Shown piece after piece: positions 6 to 57,088 of a DNA stretch of 64,000 bases. Position numbers and translations under genes: made by a program. This stretch comes from Candidatus Woesearchaeota archaeon (GTDB lineage: Archaea > Nanobdellota > Nanobdellia > Woesearchaeales > GW2011-AR9). The notes beneath the pieces are model-generated. The model was given only the letters and a program-made list of their open reading frames with translations. It ran no database searches and was not told the origin of the DNA. Each line of letters opens with the position of its first letter. Within the stretch, counting starts at the first letter, position 1. The stretch covers positions 1 to 64,000 of the forward strand of contig JABIJM010000007.1 of the NCBI GenBank assembly GCA_018655525.1. The letters run 5' to 3'.

Positions 6-108
6 CGCCAACACCCGGATTTGAACCGGGAATTCCAAAAGGAACTGGTTCTCTATTAAACCGAAGTTTGTTCAAGACCAGCGCAATACCAGATTATGCG
101 ATGTTGGC
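6..108 (-). tRNA. tRNA-Ser(UGA) with intron of about 20 nt after position 37
   Basis: Minus strand: GCCAACA/TGTTGGC acceptor, D-arm, CTGGT/ACCAG anticodon stem with loop CTTGAA interrupted by CAAACTTCGGTTTAATAGAG, long variable arm TTCC-TTTT-GGAA, T-arm CCCGG-TTCAAAT-CCGGG. Confidence 0.9.
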
Positions 109-12482: not shown

Positions 12483-12959
12483 ATGGCGTATATACGTGTT
12501 AAGAAAATTAGTAACAAACCCTATGCGTACCTTGTAGAAAGCCAGTCTACGAAACGGGGACCAAGACAACGCGTAAAACAATATTTAGGCAGGGTTCATA
12601 CAGTAGAACTGCAAGAGAACGTAGAATCTGTGGTTTCTGGAAAAACAAAGAAAGAGTTCTTACAAGGCATGGTAGTTCGTGAATTAAAACGTGCTGGATT
12701 TACAGAAAAGGGAAAGAAATTTAGTTTTGAGAGTTTACATTTCTGTCCACAAGAATTAACACTACGAAAAAAAAACAAGAAAGAAGCAATTCTTAAATTA
12801 AATGAAGGATATTTATGTAGTTTCACAGTTGACCGTTTGCATACATTTGCAAAAAGTAAAGATGTCAATAAGGACGGCTTGTTATTAGCAAAGTATTTTT
12901 TAGAATCTGGGTTAACCGTAAATGAAGAAGAGTTTGTGCAGTATTATCAGATGTTATAG
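12483..12959 (+). CDS. Conserved hypothetical protein
   Basis: 158-aa ORF beginning MAYIRVKKISNKPYAYLVES; basic. Confidence 0.65.
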   Translation: MAYIRVKKISNKPYAYLVESQSTKRGPRQRVKQYLGRVHTVELQENVESVVSGKTKKEFLQGMVVRELKRAGFTEKGKKFSFESLHFCPQELTLRKKNKKEAILKLNEGYLCSFTVDRLHTFAKSKDVNKDGLLLAKYFLESGLTVNEEEFVQYYQML

Positions 12960-13535
12960 GAAAGGAAGAAATTTCCTTAAATAATCAACTAATCCTAAGG
13001 TAGGAGTTTCTTTAGGAACATAAACGATTCTTTCCGTATCAGTTTGTGCAATAGTTGAACGATGTAATGCATCATAATCACCGAGAGTTTCTTTGAATAA
13101 TTCTAAATCCGTACGAACACCCTGAGGTTCTTGAAGAGAACCATCTCCTTTCAAAAGATATTTAAAAATATCAGCCTTCCTTTCACCTGGCAAAGAAAAA
13201 GGAACAGGATAATTATTTGCATCAAATTTTGTTGTTGTTTTTTCTTGAAGACCACTATTTTCCAATTCAAGTGTTTTAGTCAATGTCATCAATTCAGATT
13301 TTTCGTCAATACAAATATTTCTTATTTTTCTTCCTTCAACTAAACCTTCTAATTCAGATTTCCCACCAACATAAACCTGTAATTGGGTAATTGAATCATA
13401 TAAAGATCCACCAGCTAATTGAAATAGAAAAGGTTTGTCAAAATTATCAACACCATCCATCTCTAAAATCTCAGGATTAACAATGTATAATGCAACTACA
13501 TTATTACGTTCTGCTCTTATAAAATCATAAGCCAT
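12954..13535 (-). CDS. Hypothetical protein
   Basis: 193-aa ORF with TATA-like box TTTATAAAC about 30 bp upstream on the minus strand. Confidence 0.65.
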   Translation of the reverse strand: MAYDFIRAERNNVVALYIVNPEILEMDGVDNFDKPFLFQLAGGSLYDSITQLQVYVGGKSELEGLVEGRKIRNICIDEKSELMTLTKTLELENSGLQEKTTTKFDANNYPVPFSLPGERKADIFKYLLKGDGSLQEPQGVRTDLELFKETLGDYDALHRSTIAQTDTERIVYVPKETPTLGLVDYLRKFLPFL

Positions 13536-13561
13536 ATGAAGGAAGAAAGTTCGTAATTTGT

Positions 13562-13645
13562 TTATAAATCTTTCTTACGACGAAGAGAGAAGTAAAGAAG
13601 GGAAGCCCAAAACGGTGCACTTACAATAAAACTGATTGCTAACAT
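13562..13645 (-). CDS. Candidate 27-aa membrane microprotein MLAISFIVSAPFWASLLYFSLRRKKDL
   Basis: Hydrophobic span followed by RRKKDL; lies directly after a leader ORF and below the ORF-track length cutoff. Confidence 0.45.
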   Translation of the reverse strand: MLAISFIVSAPFWASLLYFSLRRKKDL

Positions 13646-13647
13646 TT

Positions 13648-13707
13648 TCAAAAAGGGTAAAAGGGGGCTCCAAGAGGGGGTGAGGGTGGTAGAATATGGA
13701 GCCCCAT
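13648..13707 (-). CDS. Candidate 19-aa leader peptide MGLHILPPSPPLGAPFYPF
   Basis: ATG 4 nt after a 5'-end hairpin; stop 2 nt before the ATG of the next small ORF; the coding sequence itself folds (GGGGCTCC/GGAGCCCC). Confidence 0.35.
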   Translation of the reverse strand: MGLHILPPSPPLGAPFYPF

Positions 13708-13738
13708 AATTGGAAAAAGCCTATCACCTCTTTTTCCC
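13665..13738 (-). promoter_or_regulatory. Structured 5' leader (two hairpins) downstream of a TATA box
   Basis: Minus strand: TTTATATAC, then about 25 bp, then GGGAAAAAG-AGGTGATAGG-CTTTTTCC hairpin, then GGGGCTCC-N26-GGAGCCCC hairpin. Confidence 0.55.
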
Positions 13739-13833
13739 TATTTATCAGAATAGCACAACAAGTATATAAATGTTACGTTTTTGTATACTGGTTGTTAGAA
13801 AATAACCTTTTGTGTACTAGTTTATTCGTCAAC

Positions 13834-15696
13834 CTACGCAAAAAACTCTCCAATAACCTTCTTATAATCCCGTGTAACCATTAATCCAACTTTATCTGGG
13901 AAACAAGAATAGTAACGATCCCAGGAAAAACGTTCTTCAAGGTATACAATCACACCTTTGTCTGTGCCACTTCTAATACATCTTCCTGCAGATTGGAAGC
14001 ATTTGTTCATTGCTGGAAATGTGTAGCCGTAATCCCATCCTTTGCTATACTTTCCGTCGTAATATGAGATAGTTTCTTTTGTCATCAAATCAGGTCGTGC
14101 AAGAGGCAATCCTACGACGACTACACCAATTAATAAGTCTCCTGGGAAATCTACACCTTCTGCGAAGTTAGCACCGGTGACAGCAAGTAAAACACCCCCC
14201 ATCATACGTGCGGATTTAAAGTCGGCAATAAAACGGTCTTTTTCTTCTTTGGACATACCTTGTTTCTCAAAGAATAATTTTTTAGGTGTGTTGAAATACA
14301 TACTAATCTGATCACGAAGATTATATGAAGGGAAAAAGAATGCAATATTTCCTGGAACCAAATCATCAATTTGCATGCAATGTTCTGCAATTTTTTTATA
14401 CATTGCTTCTCCACGAAGATTATATTTGGTACTTGTTTCAGGAACGATCATCACACGTTTATTTTCTGGTGGAAATGGAGAAGGATATTCTTTTTCAATA
14501 CCATCCTTAACACCTAAAACATCACGATACATGAATGTTGGTTTTAAAGTTCCAGACATTAAGATTCCTGAATGAATTCTCTTAAAGATGATAGAGGTAA
14601 TGATTGAAGGATCTAAACAAGCATATTTTAATTTTATAACGGGCTCTTGACGTCCAAATTCTTCTGCAAGGATTCTTGTATATCCTTCATCTGATCCTTT
14701 CCATTCTTCTAAAAAGGAGGCAATACCCCCAAGATAACTTTTTCTTTGCTTTTTCCGAATTTCATCTGCAGCAAATTCTAATTCATTTATGAGTTCATCG
14801 TAATCTGTGAATAATCTAATACTATCCGTAAAATGTCCTTGACGTACTTTTTTTTCTTTTTCGTAACCTTCAAATTTTGCTAATTTATTCAAAATTCCAT
14901 TTACTTCTTGTAATTTATTAATTAATTCTGGATACCCAAATTTCTTTGCTTCTTGAATTCCACTTTTGAGCATGTACGTTGTTAAGTTAGAACTCATCAT
15001 GTCCGTAACACGTGAAGGAAGGTTATGTGCTTCATCTACAATAAGAATAATATCTTCCATATCTATATCTAATTTATTGAATAATGTTGCTTGCACGAAA
15101 GGATTGAATAAATAATAATAATCTCCAATAAGAATTTTAGCATTTTTTGCATGTGCTAAAGAGATTTCATAACTGCACATCCGTTTTTCTTGTGCAAGAG
15201 AAATAAGTTCTTCATTATGAATTGGTCCTAACCTTTCTAGATCTTTCAAAAATACTTTTGCTTCTACGTGCAAAGCACTTTTATCTTTAACTTTATTATA
15301 AAATTCACATTCGCCTTTCCCTACAATTGATTTACAATATTCATTAAACTCATTTCCAAATAATCCTGCAACTTCTTGATTACACATCCATCGTTTTCCA
15401 ATAAGATCAACACACGTGAAATTTTCACCTGTTTTTTTTCGTATTTCTTTTAATGTATCAATTGCAATTTTATGTTGCGTGTGCCTATTTGTAAGAAAGA
15501 AAATAATTTTATCGTGTTCAATTGCATGTTGTAGTGCTACTGATAATGCAGAAGCTGTTTTTCCTAATCCTGTCGGCGCATGTGCTAATAAGATTTTTCC
15601 ATCATTTAAAGTGGTTTCTACATCATCAACCATCTCTTTTTGACCTTTTCTAATTGTATCATGCGGAAAGAATTTTAACACCTTTTCAGAAACCAT
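13834..15696 (-). CDS. XPD/Rad3-family DNA helicase
   Basis: APTGLGKTASALSVAL, DEAHNLPSRV, Cys residues consistent with a Fe-S domain (CNQEV, CKSIV..CEFY..CSYE), QSAGRCIRSGTDKG. Confidence 0.92.
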   Translation of the reverse strand: MVSEKVLKFFPHDTIRKGQKEMVDDVETTLNDGKILLAHAPTGLGKTASALSVALQHAIEHDKIIFFLTNRHTQHKIAIDTLKEIRKKTGENFTCVDLIGKRWMCNQEVAGLFGNEFNEYCKSIVGKGECEFYNKVKDKSALHVEAKVFLKDLERLGPIHNEELISLAQEKRMCSYEISLAHAKNAKILIGDYYYLFNPFVQATLFNKLDIDMEDIILIVDEAHNLPSRVTDMMSSNLTTYMLKSGIQEAKKFGYPELINKLQEVNGILNKLAKFEGYEKEKKVRQGHFTDSIRLFTDYDELINELEFAADEIRKKQRKSYLGGIASFLEEWKGSDEGYTRILAEEFGRQEPVIKLKYACLDPSIITSIIFKRIHSGILMSGTLKPTFMYRDVLGVKDGIEKEYPSPFPPENKRVMIVPETSTKYNLRGEAMYKKIAEHCMQIDDLVPGNIAFFFPSYNLRDQISMYFNTPKKLFFEKQGMSKEEKDRFIADFKSARMMGGVLLAVTGANFAEGVDFPGDLLIGVVVVGLPLARPDLMTKETISYYDGKYSKGWDYGYTFPAMNKCFQSAGRCIRSGTDKGVIVYLEERFSWDRYYSCFPDKVGLMVTRDYKKVIGEFFA

Positions 15697-28433: not shown

Positions 28434-28551
28434 AGCCCCAGGCGAGAGTTGAACTCGCGACCTCCTGATCTCTTAATGTGCAATGTACACACCAGAGTGA
28501 GTCTGTGCACCAAGTACAAGTCAGGTGCTATAGCCACTAAGCCACTGGGGC
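28434..28551 (-). tRNA. tRNA-Thr(UGU) with intron of about 45 nt after position 37
   Basis: GCCCCAG/CTGGGGC acceptor, CCTGA/TCAGG anticodon stem, loop CTTGTA, T-arm GCGAG-TTCAACT-CTCGC; 118 nt minus 45 nt = 73 nt mature. Confidence 0.88.
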
Positions 28552-38103: not shown

Positions 38104-38193
38104 GGTCCCGTGGCTTAGCTTGGTATAGCGCACGACTGATATACCTATTAAGCAGTTATCGTGAGGTCCGGAGTTCAAATCTCCGCGGGACCA
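38104..38193 (+). tRNA. tRNA-Ile(GAU) with intron of about 16 nt after position 37
   Basis: GGTCCCG/CGGGACC acceptor, CACGA/TCGTG stem, loop CTGATA followed by the intron, T-arm CGGAG-TTCAAAT-CTCCG, discriminator A; TATA-like TTTTTAAATA upstream. Confidence 0.9.
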
Positions 38194-48815: not shown

Positions 48816-49088
48816 ATGAATCTCAATGAAGAAAAACTATCACGAGCTATAAGCGCGTATTCTAGACGGCATATTCTCCGTTTACTTGCAGACAAAGAAA
48901 TGAAAGTTAAAGATATTGCTGCTACAACTAAAATGTCAGTTTCACTAGCTTCTCGTCACTTAAAATTTCTTCATGATCTTGGTTTTTTAACAGTTAAGAA
49001 AAAAAGTCCATTCAAATTTTATTCTTTAAAAATCAAAGAATTAAAAAACCTTTTGGCACTCTATGATAAGGTGATAGATAAATTATGA
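48816..49088 (+). CDS. ArsR-like HTH regulator
   Basis: SRAISAYSRRHILRLLADKEMKVKDIAATTKMSVSLASRHLKFLHDLGFLTVKKK. Confidence 0.85.
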   Translation: MNLNEEKLSRAISAYSRRHILRLLADKEMKVKDIAATTKMSVSLASRHLKFLHDLGFLTVKKKSPFKFYSLKIKELKNLLALYDKVIDKL

Positions 49089-52000
49089 AAACAAAAAAAG
49101 GGGCAAGATGTGTACATAAAGAACGAATCATCCTACTCTGGGTAGTCTTTGCTGTAATCTTGTTATTTGTGTTAGCTTCACCTATCTCTTCATTTGAAAA
49201 TAAAAAAATTAGTTGGATTCAAGAATCTCTTAGTGGATTAGTTGGGCCTGGGAACTTATTAACAGGAGCAGTCATTGGGACGCAGGAGTATGGCACTTTT
49301 GCTGAGGGAGATGAGGATACTACTTTGTGGGATATTAATATCTCTTCTACAGGTAATAATCCAGATTCTGCTGTTGATTTAGTAATAAATTCGGAGGATC
49401 ACGTGTTTGTTGTAGGAAATGGAAGTAATTTACAAGGCATTACTACTGCTTCTGATTGGTGGATTAAATCTTTCCTTCCTGATGGGACTGAAAATACAAC
49501 CTGGGATATTAATGTAAGTGAAGGTCTTCCAGGAACAGCTGAAAGTGCAACTGGTGTTACTCTTGATTCAAATAATAACCTTTATGTTATTGGGTATCTC
49601 AATGATTTTGTTGATTTACCAAGTCAAAAAGATTGGGTAGTTAAAAAATATTTTTCCAATGCTACTGAAGACTTAAATTGGGATCTTGGATTTTCAAATG
49701 GAGATCCTCCAGCTGGTGATGACATCCCTTATGATGTTGCAAATGATTCTAATGATAATATTTTTGTTGTTGGAATGGGAACTAATTTAGATAGTGGAAG
49801 TAGTGGTGAGGATTGGTGGATCAAGAAAATGAATTCTAGTGGTGTAGAAAATACAAGTCATTGGGATTTAAATTTTACTTCAGATGGTACTCAGAGTGAT
49901 ATTGCTTATGCTTTAGCTGTAGATTCAAGTGATAATGTTTTTGTTGTTGGAACTGGAAATGGTTTAAATGCTCCTCCCGCTACTGGTGCAGATTGGTGGA
50001 TCAAGAAATTTGATTCTGATGGAACTGAAAATACAACTCATTGGGATCTTAATTATTCTAATGCTATTGGAGGAGATGAAATTGCATATGATATTGCTAT
50101 AGATTCTAATGGTAATGTTTTTGTTGTAGGGGTTGGTCAAAATTTAGCTGGTTTTACTTCTGGTTCTGATTGGTGGATCAAGAAATTTGATTCTGATGGA
50201 ACTGAAAATACAACACATTGGGATAAGAATTTTTCTGGTAGTGATAGTGCTTATGAATCTGCTTATGGAGTTACGGTAGATTCCAATGATGACGTTTATG
50301 TTGTTGGTGCATTTGTTGCTGGTAATAATGCTGCCAATACAGAATGGTTAATTAAGAAATTTTTAGCTAATGGAACGGAAGACACATCAAGTTGGAATTT
50401 AACTAATACTTCTGCACGATCTTTTGATGATACCGCTTATGCGGTTGCTGTTAACTCAGAAAATAATGTAACTGTCGTTGGAGAAGTATATGACATTGAT
50501 TTAGAAACAAAAGGTTATGATTGGTGGATAAAGAGTTATGAAGGAAATTTTACTGCTGCTGAATCTCCTTCTGCTCCTGTAGGAACGTTAGGAAACTTTT
50601 TTGATGATTTCACCAATAGTCCAAACGCCACACACTATCAGAATGAAACTCTTCAAGCTATAGAAATGACTTTTGAACATGATTCAACAAATGAAGTGAT
50701 AACTTTCAATGCTTCTGTTGTGGGTGGTCGTTCAACTCACGAATTGTTTACGCTTGAAAATATTACGATGGCAGACTTTAACGCTACTGTAAATATTACT
50801 ATTGAGAATACTTCTAGTTCACTTTCTGCTTCTACTTTTGTAACTGCATCTTTAGCTTTAATCAACCAGAGTGATTCTGATTTTTTTAATGGTTGTCAAG
50901 TTAATATTGATGATACAGGAGAAACAACGTTATCAGCAGCAAATACAACAGGTGGATTTTCATCAAATCTTTCAGAAACAAATGTTGCTCCAAATGGTAC
51001 GATGTATATGGAATTTTATAGTGATACAAATCTTTTAAACTGTACTTATGATGGACAAGAAGCTTCTATTCTTGTGGAAATGGATACAGAATTCGCTTTT
51101 GGGGTTCGTGCTGATATAGCACCAGGAACACCGACTGGTGATGTGAATATTACTTTTGATGAATTAAATTATTCTTTAGGGAAAATAGTGCCTGCTGAAA
51201 GTGTAGATTGTGGATTAATTGCAACTGATACAACTATGAATCAAGATGTTACTACTATTGATACTTGTTTCTCAATAATATCGGATGATATTTCCTTAGA
51301 TTGTGCTGGTTACTCAATTGAATTTGCAACAACAAGTGAGGGACATGGAGTAAATATTACTGGAAGAGATAATGTAACTGTAGAAAATTGTGTGATTGAA
51401 GAAGGTGCTGCAAATGGTATTTCTGCTGTTCTTGTTGAATCTTCTGCGAATATAACCCTTCAAAATAATAATATCACAACAATTGGTGATTCTGTAGTGG
51501 GGATTGAATCTGGTGATAATACAAATTTAAGTAATTATATTGATAATAATATTACCACCACAAATAATGGTTATACTATTTACATCGCTGGTCAAGATAA
51601 TAATATTACTGATAATATTTTAACAGCTACCACCGGTGCAGGTATACGAGTTCTTTGGGCAAATGGAGATCGTGGAATTTACCAAGGAAATACCATTGTT
51701 GGAAACCCAGCAAGTGCAATTGGAATTGAAATTGATGGACAAAATAATTCTATCCTTAATAATGATATCTTTGTAGATGGAACAAGTGCGTGGTCAATAA
51801 GATTAAGTTCATCGGATTTTAATTTAATTGATTCAAATAATTTGACAGCAACAAATACAGGTGGGATTGGAATTTATATGATTGGGACGTCTGATAATAA
51901 TACATTAATTAATAATAATATTACTGCATCAACAGTAAATGAACTTGAACTTAGTGATGAAACTGGCGATTCTTATACTAATGTTTTAATTTATAATAAT

Positions 52001-55000
52001 TCATTTGGTCAAATTAACTGGACAAAAACAAACTTAACGACAGCTCAAAATTTAAGTGTTGGTATTACGGTTTTTCTAGAGGATAATAACATTGGTGTTT
52101 TAGATGATGAAACAAATATGCAGAATCTTAATACTTCTGCAGAAATTCAATTATTTGGACTAACCTCTTATACTTCCACTCCTCAATTATTGAAGAACGG
52201 TGTTAGATGTGATAATGGAGATTCTTGTAACATTAGTTTTGATGCTACAAATGATATCCTTTATGCTAATGTTAGCTCATTTAGTAATTATACCACTTTA
52301 ACCAATGACGTAATCTGTGGAAATCTTACCTCTGATACGACTATGAGTCAAGATTTGACAAATGATTCCTCTTGTTTTACCTTTGGTGCAAGTGATATCA
52401 CGTTGGATTGTGCTGGGTACCAGGTTAATAGTACAGGCGAAATCTCTCTTAGTGCCGTATTTATGGATAATACTATTAATACTCCTACTTATGAAAATAT
52501 AACTCTCCAAAATTGTGACTTTCGTCATTTCCCCAATAATATCATATTTCTTTCAGTTAATCACAGTCGTGTCTCTAATATCACTTTGGTAAATGGATCT
52601 TCCGGTTTTGACGTTTTTAATTCTACTATTGAAAATATAACTGCAATAAGTGGAAATATGGATATTATTTTAGGAAATTTAAGCACTTTTGAAAATATTA
52701 ATTTAACCAACGATAGCGTGTTCGGTGTATTTGAAAGTTACGAAAGTATCTTTCACAATATCACTGTTGTTCAAACAAGTGATAACGCAATATCTCTAAC
52801 AAGTTTTGAAAATAATAATTTAACAGACATTACTATTTACAATGTTTCAGATACAGGTAATGATGGTGTTCTACTTGCTTCTTCTGGGGTTCATAGAAAT
52901 AATTTTGAAAGAATTACAATTCAGAATAGTGCAGTTAAATCAGTAGGTCTTGCTTCTGGGGATAATAATACCTTTTTCAATAGCACTTTTTCAAATATTA
53001 CAGAAGGTTTTGTACTTACTGGTTCATCTGCTGGTAATATTTTCACTAATGTTGAAATTAATGTTTCCGGAATTGGTGTTTTAAGTATGGATGATACAAG
53101 TTCAGGAAACAACACCTTAATGTATAATAATTCTTTTGGTTTAATCAATTGGACAAAAACGAGCTTGGTTACACTTCAGAATTTAAGTGTTGGGACTACC
53201 ATTTTCTTAGAAAATAATACAGTAGGAGTATTAGATGACGAAGATAATATGGATCAATTAAACACTTCGTCTAAAATAGAATTACATCTTCTCAATTATT
53301 CCGAGACACCTCAATTATTGAAGAATGGTGTAAGATGTGATAATACCAATGCCTGTAATATTAGTTATAGTAGCATAACGAAAGTTCTTTCTGCTGACAT
53401 CTCTTCCTTTAGTAATTATACCACTCAAGATGCAGTCCCAGACACTACAACTCCAACAATTACCGTAGAATATCCTACAAACAATTCCAAACAAAATGAA
53501 ACCACCATTGCTTTAAACTTTACAGTAGCTGATGATGAATCAGTTGATGCTTGTTGGTACAGTTTAGATGATGGGGCAAATACAACAATTGCAAGTTGTG
53601 CTAACACAACAATTACACCAGGACGAGGACCACACAACCTTACTGTTTATGTCAATGATACCTCTAATAATATGAATAATTCTGGACGAATTAATTTTAC
53701 AATTAATAATTTCCCTACATTAAGTAATTTAGTTCTTAACACGACTGACCAAACAACAAATAATACAAACCAAAATCTTACTGCCTCTTGGACAAGTAGT
53801 GATGAAGATGGAGATAGTATTCGTAATATTACAAATTGGTTGTTGAATGGTTCTTCAATAGCAGTACTTTATCTTCCATTTGAAGGTGGTTCAAACAGCA
53901 CATTCACAAAAGATTATTCCACTTTTAGTAATAATGCAACAGTAAGTGGTGCAACCTATAATATCACTGGTTTCAAGAACTCACATGGGTCCTACCAACT
54001 TGATGGAATTGATGATTACCTGAATGTAAGTCATAATGAAAGTCTTAACATCACTGAAGAAATTACAATTATGTTCTGGGTACAAGATCCTGTTAGTGAA
54101 TGGGGGGATAATTATACAGAAACAAGTCTTACTGCAACGTATGCTAATACCGGGTGTACTACGACCGATTATTCGGGTTCTGATGATGCTATGAGAACAG
54201 CAACTTTAGGATTTGATTTTCCTTTCTTTGATAGAAACATAAGTGATACAGATACAGTTTATATGGATACTAATGGGCGTATAAGTTTTGATGATAGTAC
54301 TTCTGATTTTGGTCCAGATGCTACTGAAATGCAAAATGAAGAAAACATCGCTGCAAATTGGCAGGATTACGGTGGTGCTAGTGAGAATAATGAACATATT
54401 TGTACAAACCAAGGAGTTGCACCAAACAAATGGGCTTCTTTTGCATGGGATAGTTCATTTTATAATGGTGCTGGCACTGTTCAGGCAGAGATTATTCTTT
54501 ATCAAAATGGGACCATCGACATTATCTATGGTACTATTGCTGCTCACGCCGATACGTGGTATCGTGGGATCAGTAATGGAACTGGATCAGATTATGCTTA
54601 CACTACTGATACTACATTAAGTGGAGCAGAAAGTAACACTGCTTTTAGATACACTCCTCCAGCTATAGTTGCGGCTGAAGGATCTGAAACTTCTAATCGG
54701 ACATTAGTAAGTAAAGCTGGGAGTTATACAATACAAATGAAAAATATGACGGTCTCTGCATATATCAATGGAACTGATGAAGATAGTGTTACCTTAACCA
54801 TTGATAAAAATTGGACACACCTAGCAATGACATATAATGGTAGCGATTTGAAATTATACAAAAACGGTGCATTAGCAAATAACACGAGTTTCTCTGCTAC
54901 AATTGAATCATCAATTAGCGATGTAATCATTGGAGATTTAATTAATGGATCTATGGATGAGGTTTATATCTTCAATCGTAGCCTCTCTGCTAATCAAATT

Positions 55001-57088
55001 TCTGCAATGTACAATAACCAAACAGATATAATTGTTTCTCAAGAAACTTCAGAGGATGATAATTGGACTGTTGAAGTTACACCTAATGATGGTTTTGCAG
55101 ATGGAGAAACAAGCAGTTCTGGTGAACTAATTGTTCTTGCTGATAATAACCCTACAATTCTTGATCTTATTCCAGCACTTAATTCACAATATAACACATT
55201 AGAAACTATTGAAATTGCAGTAAATGTTACTGATGATGTAAGTGTTTCGCAAGTGTATGCAAACGTAAGTCTTTCTAATGGAACTATTGAAGAGGTAGAA
55301 TTAAGTTTTGATAGTAACAACAGGTACAATAACACCTATACAATTCCAGTTTCAGTAGGTGGAATATATAATATAACATTTATTGCAAATGATACGGCAG
55401 GAAATTATAATACGACAAACATTACAAATTTTACAGTTGTTTTTACAGATACAGACAGTGATGGGTCTGATGACCTTGCAGACACATTAATTGGAAATGA
55501 ATCAGATATTTTAACACAAGGAATTTCTGGATTGAATATTACGGTTGGTGGAAATCAATCAAACGGAACTTTCACAGGTGTTCATGAAGTCTTGTTCTAT
55601 AATGAAACTACTTTATTCATCAACTTTACGCATAACTTTAGTTCTTCAGGATTGAATTTAAGTAACTTTACAATAAACTTTACTTCAACTTCATTAGTAA
55701 TGAACTTTAGTGAACAAATTCAATCTGAATATAATAAAACTTTTTATTTTCCAGATAATGGTTATACTTCCATTTGTGTAGAGAACGCAGAAATCAATTC
55801 AGATGCAGATATTAGTTCCGGTTGTAATGGAGATGATGAAACTAATTTTGATACTTGTCTTGGAGTTAGCACGGGAACTACAATTAATAGTATTACGTGT
55901 TATGATAATGGTACTACCATTACAATTCAAAACTTAAGTTTTTCTGGAATCAGGGGAACTACAACTTCCGCTGCAGTTACTCCGCCTGCAGCTGATTCTG
56001 GAAGTCCTGGTGGGTCTCCAGGTAGTAGTTTACCACCTTCAACTGATGCTAGCGAATCTTCTGATTCTACCGATACAGAAGGTTCTAATTCAGAAACCTC
56101 TGATGCTACAGATTCGTCTGGACCAACAGGTGCAGCTGTTACACCTCAAGGATCTTCAAATCTTGCAGGACGTGCATTCTTTGGTGACTTTGGTGAATAT
56201 TCCGAACAATTTGGACGTTATATCTTAACAGGAATATTAGCAGTTCTAGCACTTGGAACATTCACTTATGGTGGAAGAAAAATTCATCATAAAATCAAAC
56301 ATCGACACACTTTAATTCATAAACCTATGGAACGTGCTCCCGAAATGGACTTAAGATTAGTACCAATGACATTAATTGATTCCAAAGAACCAATGGGTGA
56401 CAAAATTAATAATATTAACAAACAACTTGCAGCATTACAGATTGATGAAGTCCCAATACCTAAGAATAAAAAACGATCTTTAAGATTATTCAAGAATAAT
56501 ACCAAAGAAGTTGTTCTTGCAAATGAACTTCAAAATTTAAATAACGAAATCCACGGTTATGATAAACCTCAAGTTATTGATGAACCTTTAGGAAAACAGG
56601 AATGGGATAATCAATTAGAAGAAATTGAAATTAAACTTGATAATGTTAATCAAAAATCTTCAGTAAAACCAAAAAAGAAAAAATCTTTTTCAAGATTCTT
56701 TCAACGAAATACGAAAGAAGTCGTTTTAGCTAATGAACTTCAAAAATTAGATAACGAGATTCATGGTTATGAAAAATCTAAAGTAATTAATGAACCTCAG
56801 GTGAAACAAGAATGGGATACGCGTTTAGAACAAATTGAAAAAGAACTTGGAACAGTCAATGTTGATTTTGGTAAAGGAAGAGTTGTTACAAAAATCGCTG
56901 AATCTAAAGATGATTTTGGAGATACTCAAAATGCTCTCTTGAATAAAGAATTAGACCATATCTCTCAGAAATTACAAGGGAAAGAACCATTCCCTTCAAA
57001 ATTTAATAATCCTAAAACTCAAGAAAATGCTGGGGGATCTGAACTTGAAGAACTTGAGCGAGAAATTAAAAAGTTAAAAGAGATGTAA
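49085..57088 (+). CDS. 2,667-aa mosaic surface protein with C-terminal TM and cytoplasmic tail
   Basis: N-terminal beta-propeller-like repeats (DSNDNVFVVG..DWWIKKFDSDGTENTTHWDLN), two right-handed beta-helix blocks, LamG-like region, Ser/Thr stalk, TM ILTGILAVLALGTFTYGG, charged tail repeats. Confidence 0.85.
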   Translation: MKTKKGARCVHKERIILLWVVFAVILLFVLASPISSFENKKISWIQESLSGLVGPGNLLTGAVIGTQEYGTFAEGDEDTTLWDINISSTGNNPDSAVDLVINSEDHVFVVGNGSNLQGITTASDWWIKSFLPDGTENTTWDINVSEGLPGTAESATGVTLDSNNNLYVIGYLNDFVDLPSQKDWVVKKYFSNATEDLNWDLGFSNGDPPAGDDIPYDVANDSNDNIFVVGMGTNLDSGSSGEDWWIKKMNSSGVENTSHWDLNFTSDGTQSDIAYALAVDSSDNVFVVGTGNGLNAPPATGADWWIKKFDSDGTENTTHWDLNYSNAIGGDEIAYDIAIDSNGNVFVVGVGQNLAGFTSGSDWWIKKFDSDGTENTTHWDKNFSGSDSAYESAYGVTVDSNDDVYVVGAFVAGNNAANTEWLIKKFLANGTEDTSSWNLTNTSARSFDDTAYAVAVNSENNVTVVGEVYDIDLETKGYDWWIKSYEGNFTAAESPSAPVGTLGNFFDDFTNSPNATHYQNETLQAIEMTFEHDSTNEVITFNASVVGGRSTHELFTLENITMADFNATVNITIENTSSSLSASTFVTASLALINQSDSDFFNGCQVNIDDTGETTLSAANTTGGFSSNLSETNVAPNGTMYMEFYSDTNLLNCTYDGQEASILVEMDTEFAFGVRADIAPGTPTGDVNITFDELNYSLGKIVPAESVDCGLIATDTTMNQDVTTIDTCFSIISDDISLDCAGYSIEFATTSEGHGVNITGRDNVTVENCVIEEGAANGISAVLVESSANITLQNNNITTIGDSVVGIESGDNTNLSNYIDNNITTTNNGYTIYIAGQDNNITDNILTATTGAGIRVLWANGDRGIYQGNTIVGNPASAIGIEIDGQNNSILNNDIFVDGTSAWSIRLSSSDFNLIDSNNLTATNTGGIGIYMIGTSDNNTLINNNITASTVNELELSDETGDSYTNVLIYNNSFGQINWTKTNLTTAQNLSVGITVFLEDNNIGVLDDETNMQNLNTSAEIQLFGLTSYTSTPQLLKNGVRCDNGDSCNISFDATNDILYANVSSFSNYTTLTNDVICGNLTSDTTMSQDLTNDSSCFTFGASDITLDCAGYQVNSTGEISLSAVFMDNTINTPTYENITLQNCDFRHFPNNIIFLSVNHSRVSNITLVNGSSGFDVFNSTIENITAISGNMDIILGNLSTFENINLTNDSVFGVFESYESIFHNITVVQTSDNAISLTSFENNNLTDITIYNVSDTGNDGVLLASSGVHRNNFERITIQNSAVKSVGLASGDNNTFFNSTFSNITEGFVLTGSSAGNIFTNVEINVSGIGVLSMDDTSSGNNTLMYNNSFGLINWTKTSLVTLQNLSVGTTIFLENNTVGVLDDEDNMDQLNTSSKIELHLLNYSETPQLLKNGVRCDNTNACNISYSSITKVLSADISSFSNYTTQDAVPDTTTPTITVEYPTNNSKQNETTIALNFTVADDESVDACWYSLDDGANTTIASCANTTITPGRGPHNLTVYVNDTSNNMNNSGRINFTINNFPTLSNLVLNTTDQTTNNTNQNLTASWTSSDEDGDSIRNITNWLLNGSSIAVLYLPFEGGSNSTFTKDYSTFSNNATVSGATYNITGFKNSHGSYQLDGIDDYLNVSHNESLNITEEITIMFWVQDPVSEWGDNYTETSLTATYANTGCTTTDYSGSDDAMRTATLGFDFPFFDRNISDTDTVYMDTNGRISFDDSTSDFGPDATEMQNEENIAANWQDYGGASENNEHICTNQGVAPNKWASFAWDSSFYNGAGTVQAEIILYQNGTIDIIYGTIAAHADTWYRGISNGTGSDYAYTTDTTLSGAESNTAFRYTPPAIVAAEGSETSNRTLVSKAGSYTIQMKNMTVSAYINGTDEDSVTLTIDKNWTHLAMTYNGSDLKLYKNGALANNTSFSATIESSISDVIIGDLINGSMDEVYIFNRSLSANQISAMYNNQTDIIVSQETSEDDNWTVEVTPNDGFADGETSSSGELIVLADNNPTILDLIPALNSQYNTLETIEIAVNVTDDVSVSQVYANVSLSNGTIEEVELSFDSNNRYNNTYTIPVSVGGIYNITFIANDTAGNYNTTNITNFTVVFTDTDSDGSDDLADTLIGNESDILTQGISGLNITVGGNQSNGTFTGVHEVLFYNETTLFINFTHNFSSSGLNLSNFTINFTSTSLVMNFSEQIQSEYNKTFYFPDNGYTSICVENAEINSDADISSGCNGDDETNFDTCLGVSTGTTINSITCYDNGTTITIQNLSFSGIRGTTTSAAVTPPAADSGSPGGSPGSSLPPSTDASESSDSTDTEGSNSETSDATDSSGPTGAAVTPQGSSNLAGRAFFGDFGEYSEQFGRYILTGILAVLALGTFTYGGRKIHHKIKHRHTLIHKPMERAPEMDLRLVPMTLIDSKEPMGDKINNINKQLAALQIDEVPIPKNKKRSLRLFKNNTKEVVLANELQNLNNEIHGYDKPQVIDEPLGKQEWDNQLEEIEIKLDNVNQKSSVKPKKKKSFSRFFQRNTKEVVLANELQKLDNEIHGYEKSKVINEPQVKQEWDTRLEQIEKELGTVNVDFGKGRVVTKIAESKDDFGDTQNALLNKELDHISQKLQGKEPFPSKFNNPKTQENAGGSELEELEREIKKLKEM

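Follow-up and report, generated by a model that had tools for sequence, protein, structure and literature searches.

Staphylococcal sRNAs use C-rich apical loop motifs to pair with Shine-Dalgarno sequences; they are bacterial, with another promoter and regulon, and we claim no homology between them and the woesearchaeal RNA gene analysed here. Among archaea, CdrS of Haloferax volcanii binds upstream of ftsZ1 and of the RNA gene HVO_1885s, which encodes a CdrS-activated RNA of unknown function, and both decrease upon cdrS knock-down (PMC8406309). The system described below resembles this regulon (PMC8406309) in its arrangement, with one regulatory site found ahead of both ftsZ and a short RNA, but it belongs to another archaeal lineage, and CdrS has been reported absent from DPANN (PMC7439475). 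Most CdrS sites in Haloferax are located 41-110 nt ahead of the start, whereas the woesearchaeal element abuts the TATA box. In Saccharolobus, a small RHH factor, aCcr1, also controls archaeal division genes; as cited in PMC7617429 and PMC12796447, it is a repressor in an ESCRT-based division system, and the passages concerned report no RNA member. With respect to action, the comparison is with sRNA162 of Methanosarcina mazei (PMC3510493), an archaeal trans-acting sRNA in which an unpaired segment masks a ribosome-binding site, as we propose here. The likeness is one of proposed action; sRNA162 is a different gene, and its pairing is experimental whereas that of the woesearchaeal RNA is predicted.

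We analysed a window of 64,000 nucleotides (the whole stretch of DNA under study) from an archaeal assembly of 0.96 Mb. Nearly all named relatives that share the loop of the RNA gene are labelled Candidatus Woesearchaeota. The features of the locus are as follows.

12954-13535, minus strand: 193-aa ORF without a Pfam or NCBIfam match, downstream of the RNA gene.
13561-13568, minus strand: TATA-like TTTATAAA, 26 nt ahead of the 193-aa ORF, overlapping the last ORF2 codons.
13562-13645, minus strand: ORF2 (MLAISFIVSAPFWASLLYFSLRRKKDL), a genus-specific 27-aa putative membrane microprotein that opens 2 nt past the ORF1 stop.
13648-13707, minus strand: ORF1 (MGLHILPPSPPLGAPFYPF), an ORF of 19 codons that runs across the GGGGCTCC/GGAGCCCC hairpin; judged not to be a gene.
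13650-13738, minus strand: small RNA gene, with a predicted start at about 13738 and a predicted end in the T-runs 13662-13659 and 13654-13650.
13664-13705, minus strand: core hairpin, stem 13705-13697 / 13672-13664.
13673-13694, minus strand: C-rich single-stranded loop UUCUACCACCCUCACCCCCUCU, nearly invariant in alignments; proposed pairing site.
13712-13737, minus strand: optional 5' hairpin module GGAAAAAG-AGGTGATAGG-CTTTTTCC, with AGGTGATAGG in the loop.
About 13771-13763, minus strand: TATA box TTTATATAC, read from the sequence.
13763-13791, minus strand: 27-bp promoter/operator element CC-AGTATACAAAAACGTAACATTTATATA, whose 3' end is formed by the TATA box.
13834-15696, minus strand: XPD/Rad3-like helicase gene (Pfam), a conserved neighbour upstream of the RNA gene.

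Both ends of the RNA gene were predicted from the letters, by TATA spacing and the T-run; a GGG at 13738-13736 (minus strand) is compatible with a transcription start ~25 nt 3' of the TATA box. The original prediction had named this TATA box, the letters at the 13738 start, the 5' hairpin with its SD-like loop and both ORFs, and all of these letters were confirmed on the minus strand. Our preferred reading, to which we give an even chance of being correct as a whole, is that of a stand-alone sRNA gene in a cell-division-linked regulon whose loop would pair with G-rich ribosome-binding regions, with ftsZ2 as the lead target.

Sixty regions were retrieved and aligned. A DNA search with positions 13536-13800 gave matches in 49 of 60 relatives, in which the GGGGCTCC hairpin and the promoter stretch stood out as conserved; within the segment, conservation is highest in the promoter stretch and in the loop of the hairpin, ahead of the ORFs. 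The core consists of a GGGGCUCC/GGAGCCCC stem and a ~20-nt single-stranded loop, and a covariance model of 43 positions, with the stem alignment built from an ungapped seed, detected one copy per genome in 33 of the 49 genomes of the host's family and, at strict settings, gave no match outside it. Among 30 distinct sequences, 99% of stem cells are paired and 6 of 7 modelled pairs have changed on both sides; none of 500 shuffles reached the 24 double-changed cells observed, and slid structures performed much worse. The predicted fold of the core hairpin is equally strong (z = -4.3) in none of 200 shuffles. A covariance model from relatives had been the proposed check of the original prediction, and the stem covariation points to RNA function, in favour of the structured non-coding RNA that it had listed as its alternative. 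A T-run of at least five T is present in 24 of 33 family homologues, and the helicase gene is the same-strand upstream neighbour of the RNA gene in 25 family loci, the window counted in. From these comparisons, we firmly assign the segment from 13738 to about 13650 (minus strand) as a conserved gene with a dedicated promoter for a predicted structured non-coding RNA.

The G/C-rich inverted repeat, present as a single copy at a fixed position, could also be read as a DNA element, such as a replication or segregation site. We consider this very improbable: a TATA box lies upstream and T-runs mark the ends, the stem changes include G-U pairs, the loop is strand-specific, and the promoter element is common to protein genes.

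The 5' hairpin folds less well (z = -2.0; 9 of 200 shuffles equally good), and its module was found within 3 mismatches in 9 of 33 family homologues. About a quarter of the family RNAs have kept this module (GGGAAAAAGAGGTGATAG), which brings an SD-like sequence into the sRNA, and the rest lack it. A kissing interaction between the 5' loop (GGUGAUAG) and the C-loop (CUACCACC) with 7 of 8 pairs was considered and not adopted; it has a constant A-C mismatch, and variants read by eye showed no compensation.

We searched 84,980 genomes for the exact 18-mer of the loop and found it on 31 contigs, 28 archaeal and 3 bacterial. The promoter element lies upstream (at most 3 mismatches) in 26 of the 28 archaeal loci, compared to none of the 3 bacterial chance matches. 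A viral origin of the RNA was rejected, as the loop matches one viral contig and the promoter element none; that IMG/VR contig (L395) has the exact 18-mer at 13838-13855, near the contig end, and is possibly a mis-binned host fragment. In a search of the window with 4227 Rfam models at gathering and relaxed thresholds, only tRNAs were matched; the best sub-threshold match at the RNA gene reached 15.5 bits, where the cut-off is 33.8. Three tRNA genes of 90-118 nt (window positions 6-108, 28434-28551 and 38104-38193) were found by Rfam and missed by ARAGORN, and probably contain introns. Elsewhere in the window, the 2667-aa ORF at positions 49085-57088 combines repeats of the beta-propeller and right-handed beta-helix types and is likely a giant surface protein.

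The original prediction had favoured translational attenuation, in which a Pro-rich leader and nested hairpins control the membrane microprotein. The comparison does not support this: an ATG ORF across the loop is absent in 17 of 33 family members and the remaining members use all three frames, and the 5' module is confined to the minority noted above. The loop is nearly unvarying even where changes would be synonymous for ORF1. Since it is not conserved in the family, we judge ORF1 to be incidental and not a gene. ORF2 was found in three genomes, all of the genus; its start, length and stop are kept in G002, and the G001 copy is cut by the contig end. Third-position changes dominate, with pN/pS values of 0.08/0.39, 0.17/0.52 and 0.15/0.45 (about 0.2-0.3), which makes it probable that ORF2 encodes a genuine membrane protein of 27 aa in the genus. 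No separate ORF2 promoter was seen at the locus, so that ORF2 may be expressed by read-through from the RNA gene.

In the genus, ORF2 thus looks coding and begins a few nt past T-runs that are short, without a visible promoter of its own, an arrangement that would also fit hairpins acting in cis as a 5' UTR that attenuates ORF2 and the 193-aa gene. We regard such a leader as improbable, given that elsewhere in the family and the order the RNA has a T-run and stands without ORF2 (which was found in the one genus only), that there is usually no same-strand ORF start within 220 nt of it, and that ORF1 is not conserved. The 193-aa ORF moreover has a TATA-like box, formed by the last ORF2 codons, whose TTTATAA is also present in G001 and G002, and probably possesses its own leaderless promoter. 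Homologues of this ORF occur in the genus and in one further genome; a protein search of named genomes gave none. In two assemblies of the genus, a contig break separates the RNA gene from the 193-aa gene (G001 contigs C60/C81, G002 contigs C9/C17), and the intact full arrangement is therefore seen in the window only.

The element AGTATACNAAANNGTAAYATTTATATA spans 27 bp upstream of the RNA gene, with the TATA box at its end. It matches once in the window, compared to no match in 100 shuffles, and of the 269 genomes in the order, 130 contain its pattern, with none for the reversed control. We read about 150 regions downstream of the element, removing false hairpins by hand, and found about 54 RNA hairpins, 41 copies of a ~130-aa protein, 22 ftsZ genes, 6 pilins and 3 RHH genes, together with a few TPR/clathrin-like and surface proteins. 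The RNA likely belongs to a cell-division-linked regulon, because in sister families the element is also located ahead of ftsZ and of a few further genes; in the host genome it fronts the RNA gene and a 129-aa gene only, and neither of the two ftsZ genes carries it. Other families also show diverged C-loop hairpins behind the element, with a GGCTCC-like stem and a loop near UUCU-N-ACCACCCCUCAC. The family covariance model recognises just one of these outside hairpins with E below 0.01; their homology therefore rests on promoter, position and loop.

Several of the other genes behind the element merit description. The ~130-aa protein (host genome: L108 1549-1935, contig C26; about 40 homologues) starts MVILFD, contains a strictly conserved SYNKRQFYDRILTP segment and is mostly leaderless; it matched no Pfam or NCBIfam family and had no significant PDB relative. 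TPR/clathrin-like repeat proteins (ILPALLEKGLDNVNLSMF) lie behind the element at L055, L224, L226, L228, L261 and L263. Pilin-like genes with class III signal peptides (MEFLMTYGWAILVV) share it at L058, L234, L236, L257, L258 and L278, which suggests joint regulation of surface filaments and division. Small RHH proteins carry it at L221, L222 and L233 and could represent a DPANN factor similar to CdrS that regulates itself; the only RHH_1 protein of the host genome is 43 aa long.

We then considered where the loop might act. Leaders of ftsZ2 in the family have a common GAGGTGGTGTAAAATGGA, mostly with a G-box upstream, and UACCACC is predicted to pair with the ftsZ2 Shine-Dalgarno GAGGUGGUG and CACCCCCUCU with the G-box. 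The ftsZ2 pairing score of -20.0 ranks third among 378 host start regions, a sample from about 40% of the genome (mean -7.6, sd 3.8), and second among the 63 with an SD-like motif. Across 18 genomes, native loop-ftsZ2 pairs average -22.6 kcal/mol, compared to -10.5 for 193 neighbouring control genes. Native pairing also exceeds swapped pairing (p 0.003; 0.024 without G017 and 0.078 without three genomes), the genomes being related and not independent. Helicase leaders (p 0.62) and minus-strand neighbours (p 0.41) gave no such signal, controls of low power in which most loops are identical. Two cases illustrate how loop and leader may change together: G023 and G010 differ by one exact compensating change (C-to-U matched by G-to-A), and G017, whose loop is very different, has two fresh blocks complementary to its ftsZ2 leader in the correct order. 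In G019 the RNA was undetected, yet the GGTGGTG ftsZ2 leader is retained. Overall, the evidence for coevolution is suggestive, modest and phylogenetically confounded, and C-rich loops fit G-rich leaders easily. The ftsZ2 ribosome-binding region, plausibly masked by the RNA loop, is the best target candidate.

The swap test on ftsZ1 leaders gave the same signal (p 0.003), and the loop may thus fit G-rich Shine-Dalgarno sequences in general. With the same RNA gene and regulon, it could act broadly, masking many G-rich Shine-Dalgarno sequences or titrating ribosomes or a C-binding protein, with no special ftsZ2 target. The near-fixed loop beside varying stems, two unrelated host start regions that score equal to ftsZ2 and the resemblance of the loop to an anti-SD with extra C's (the host 16S 3' end is cut off in the assembly) all fit such action. 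However, ftsZ2 lies consistently far above control start regions in the 18 genomes and divergent loops retain complementarity to it, and we hold broad action to be possible but rather doubtful.

For the specific reading with ftsZ2 as lead target, we propose that the RNA would be switched on together with division genes by a DNA-binding factor, perhaps a small RHH protein similar to CdrS. The exposed C-rich loop would then base-pair with G-rich ribosome-binding regions, and on the ftsZ2 leader would cover the Shine-Dalgarno and the G-box, lowering FtsZ2 synthesis. In its fullest form, the proposal is of an sRNA that is kept through a DPANN order, has its promoter element in common with ftsZ and adjusts FtsZ2 levels by masking the ftsZ2 Shine-Dalgarno; we put this forward tentatively, at somewhat less than an even chance.

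Gene regulation in DPANN archaea is little known, and this RNA matches no Rfam family and is described in none of the papers found in this analysis. The conserved sRNA is tied to a promoter element that is sharply defined and common to ftsZ and a few uncharacterised genes, and the element yields a list of candidate division genes, above all the MVILFD protein. The RNA has a parallel, open to testing, in the unexplained RNA that CdrS activates in Haloferax and, if the proposal is true, would add a post-transcriptional layer to the control of cell division in archaea.
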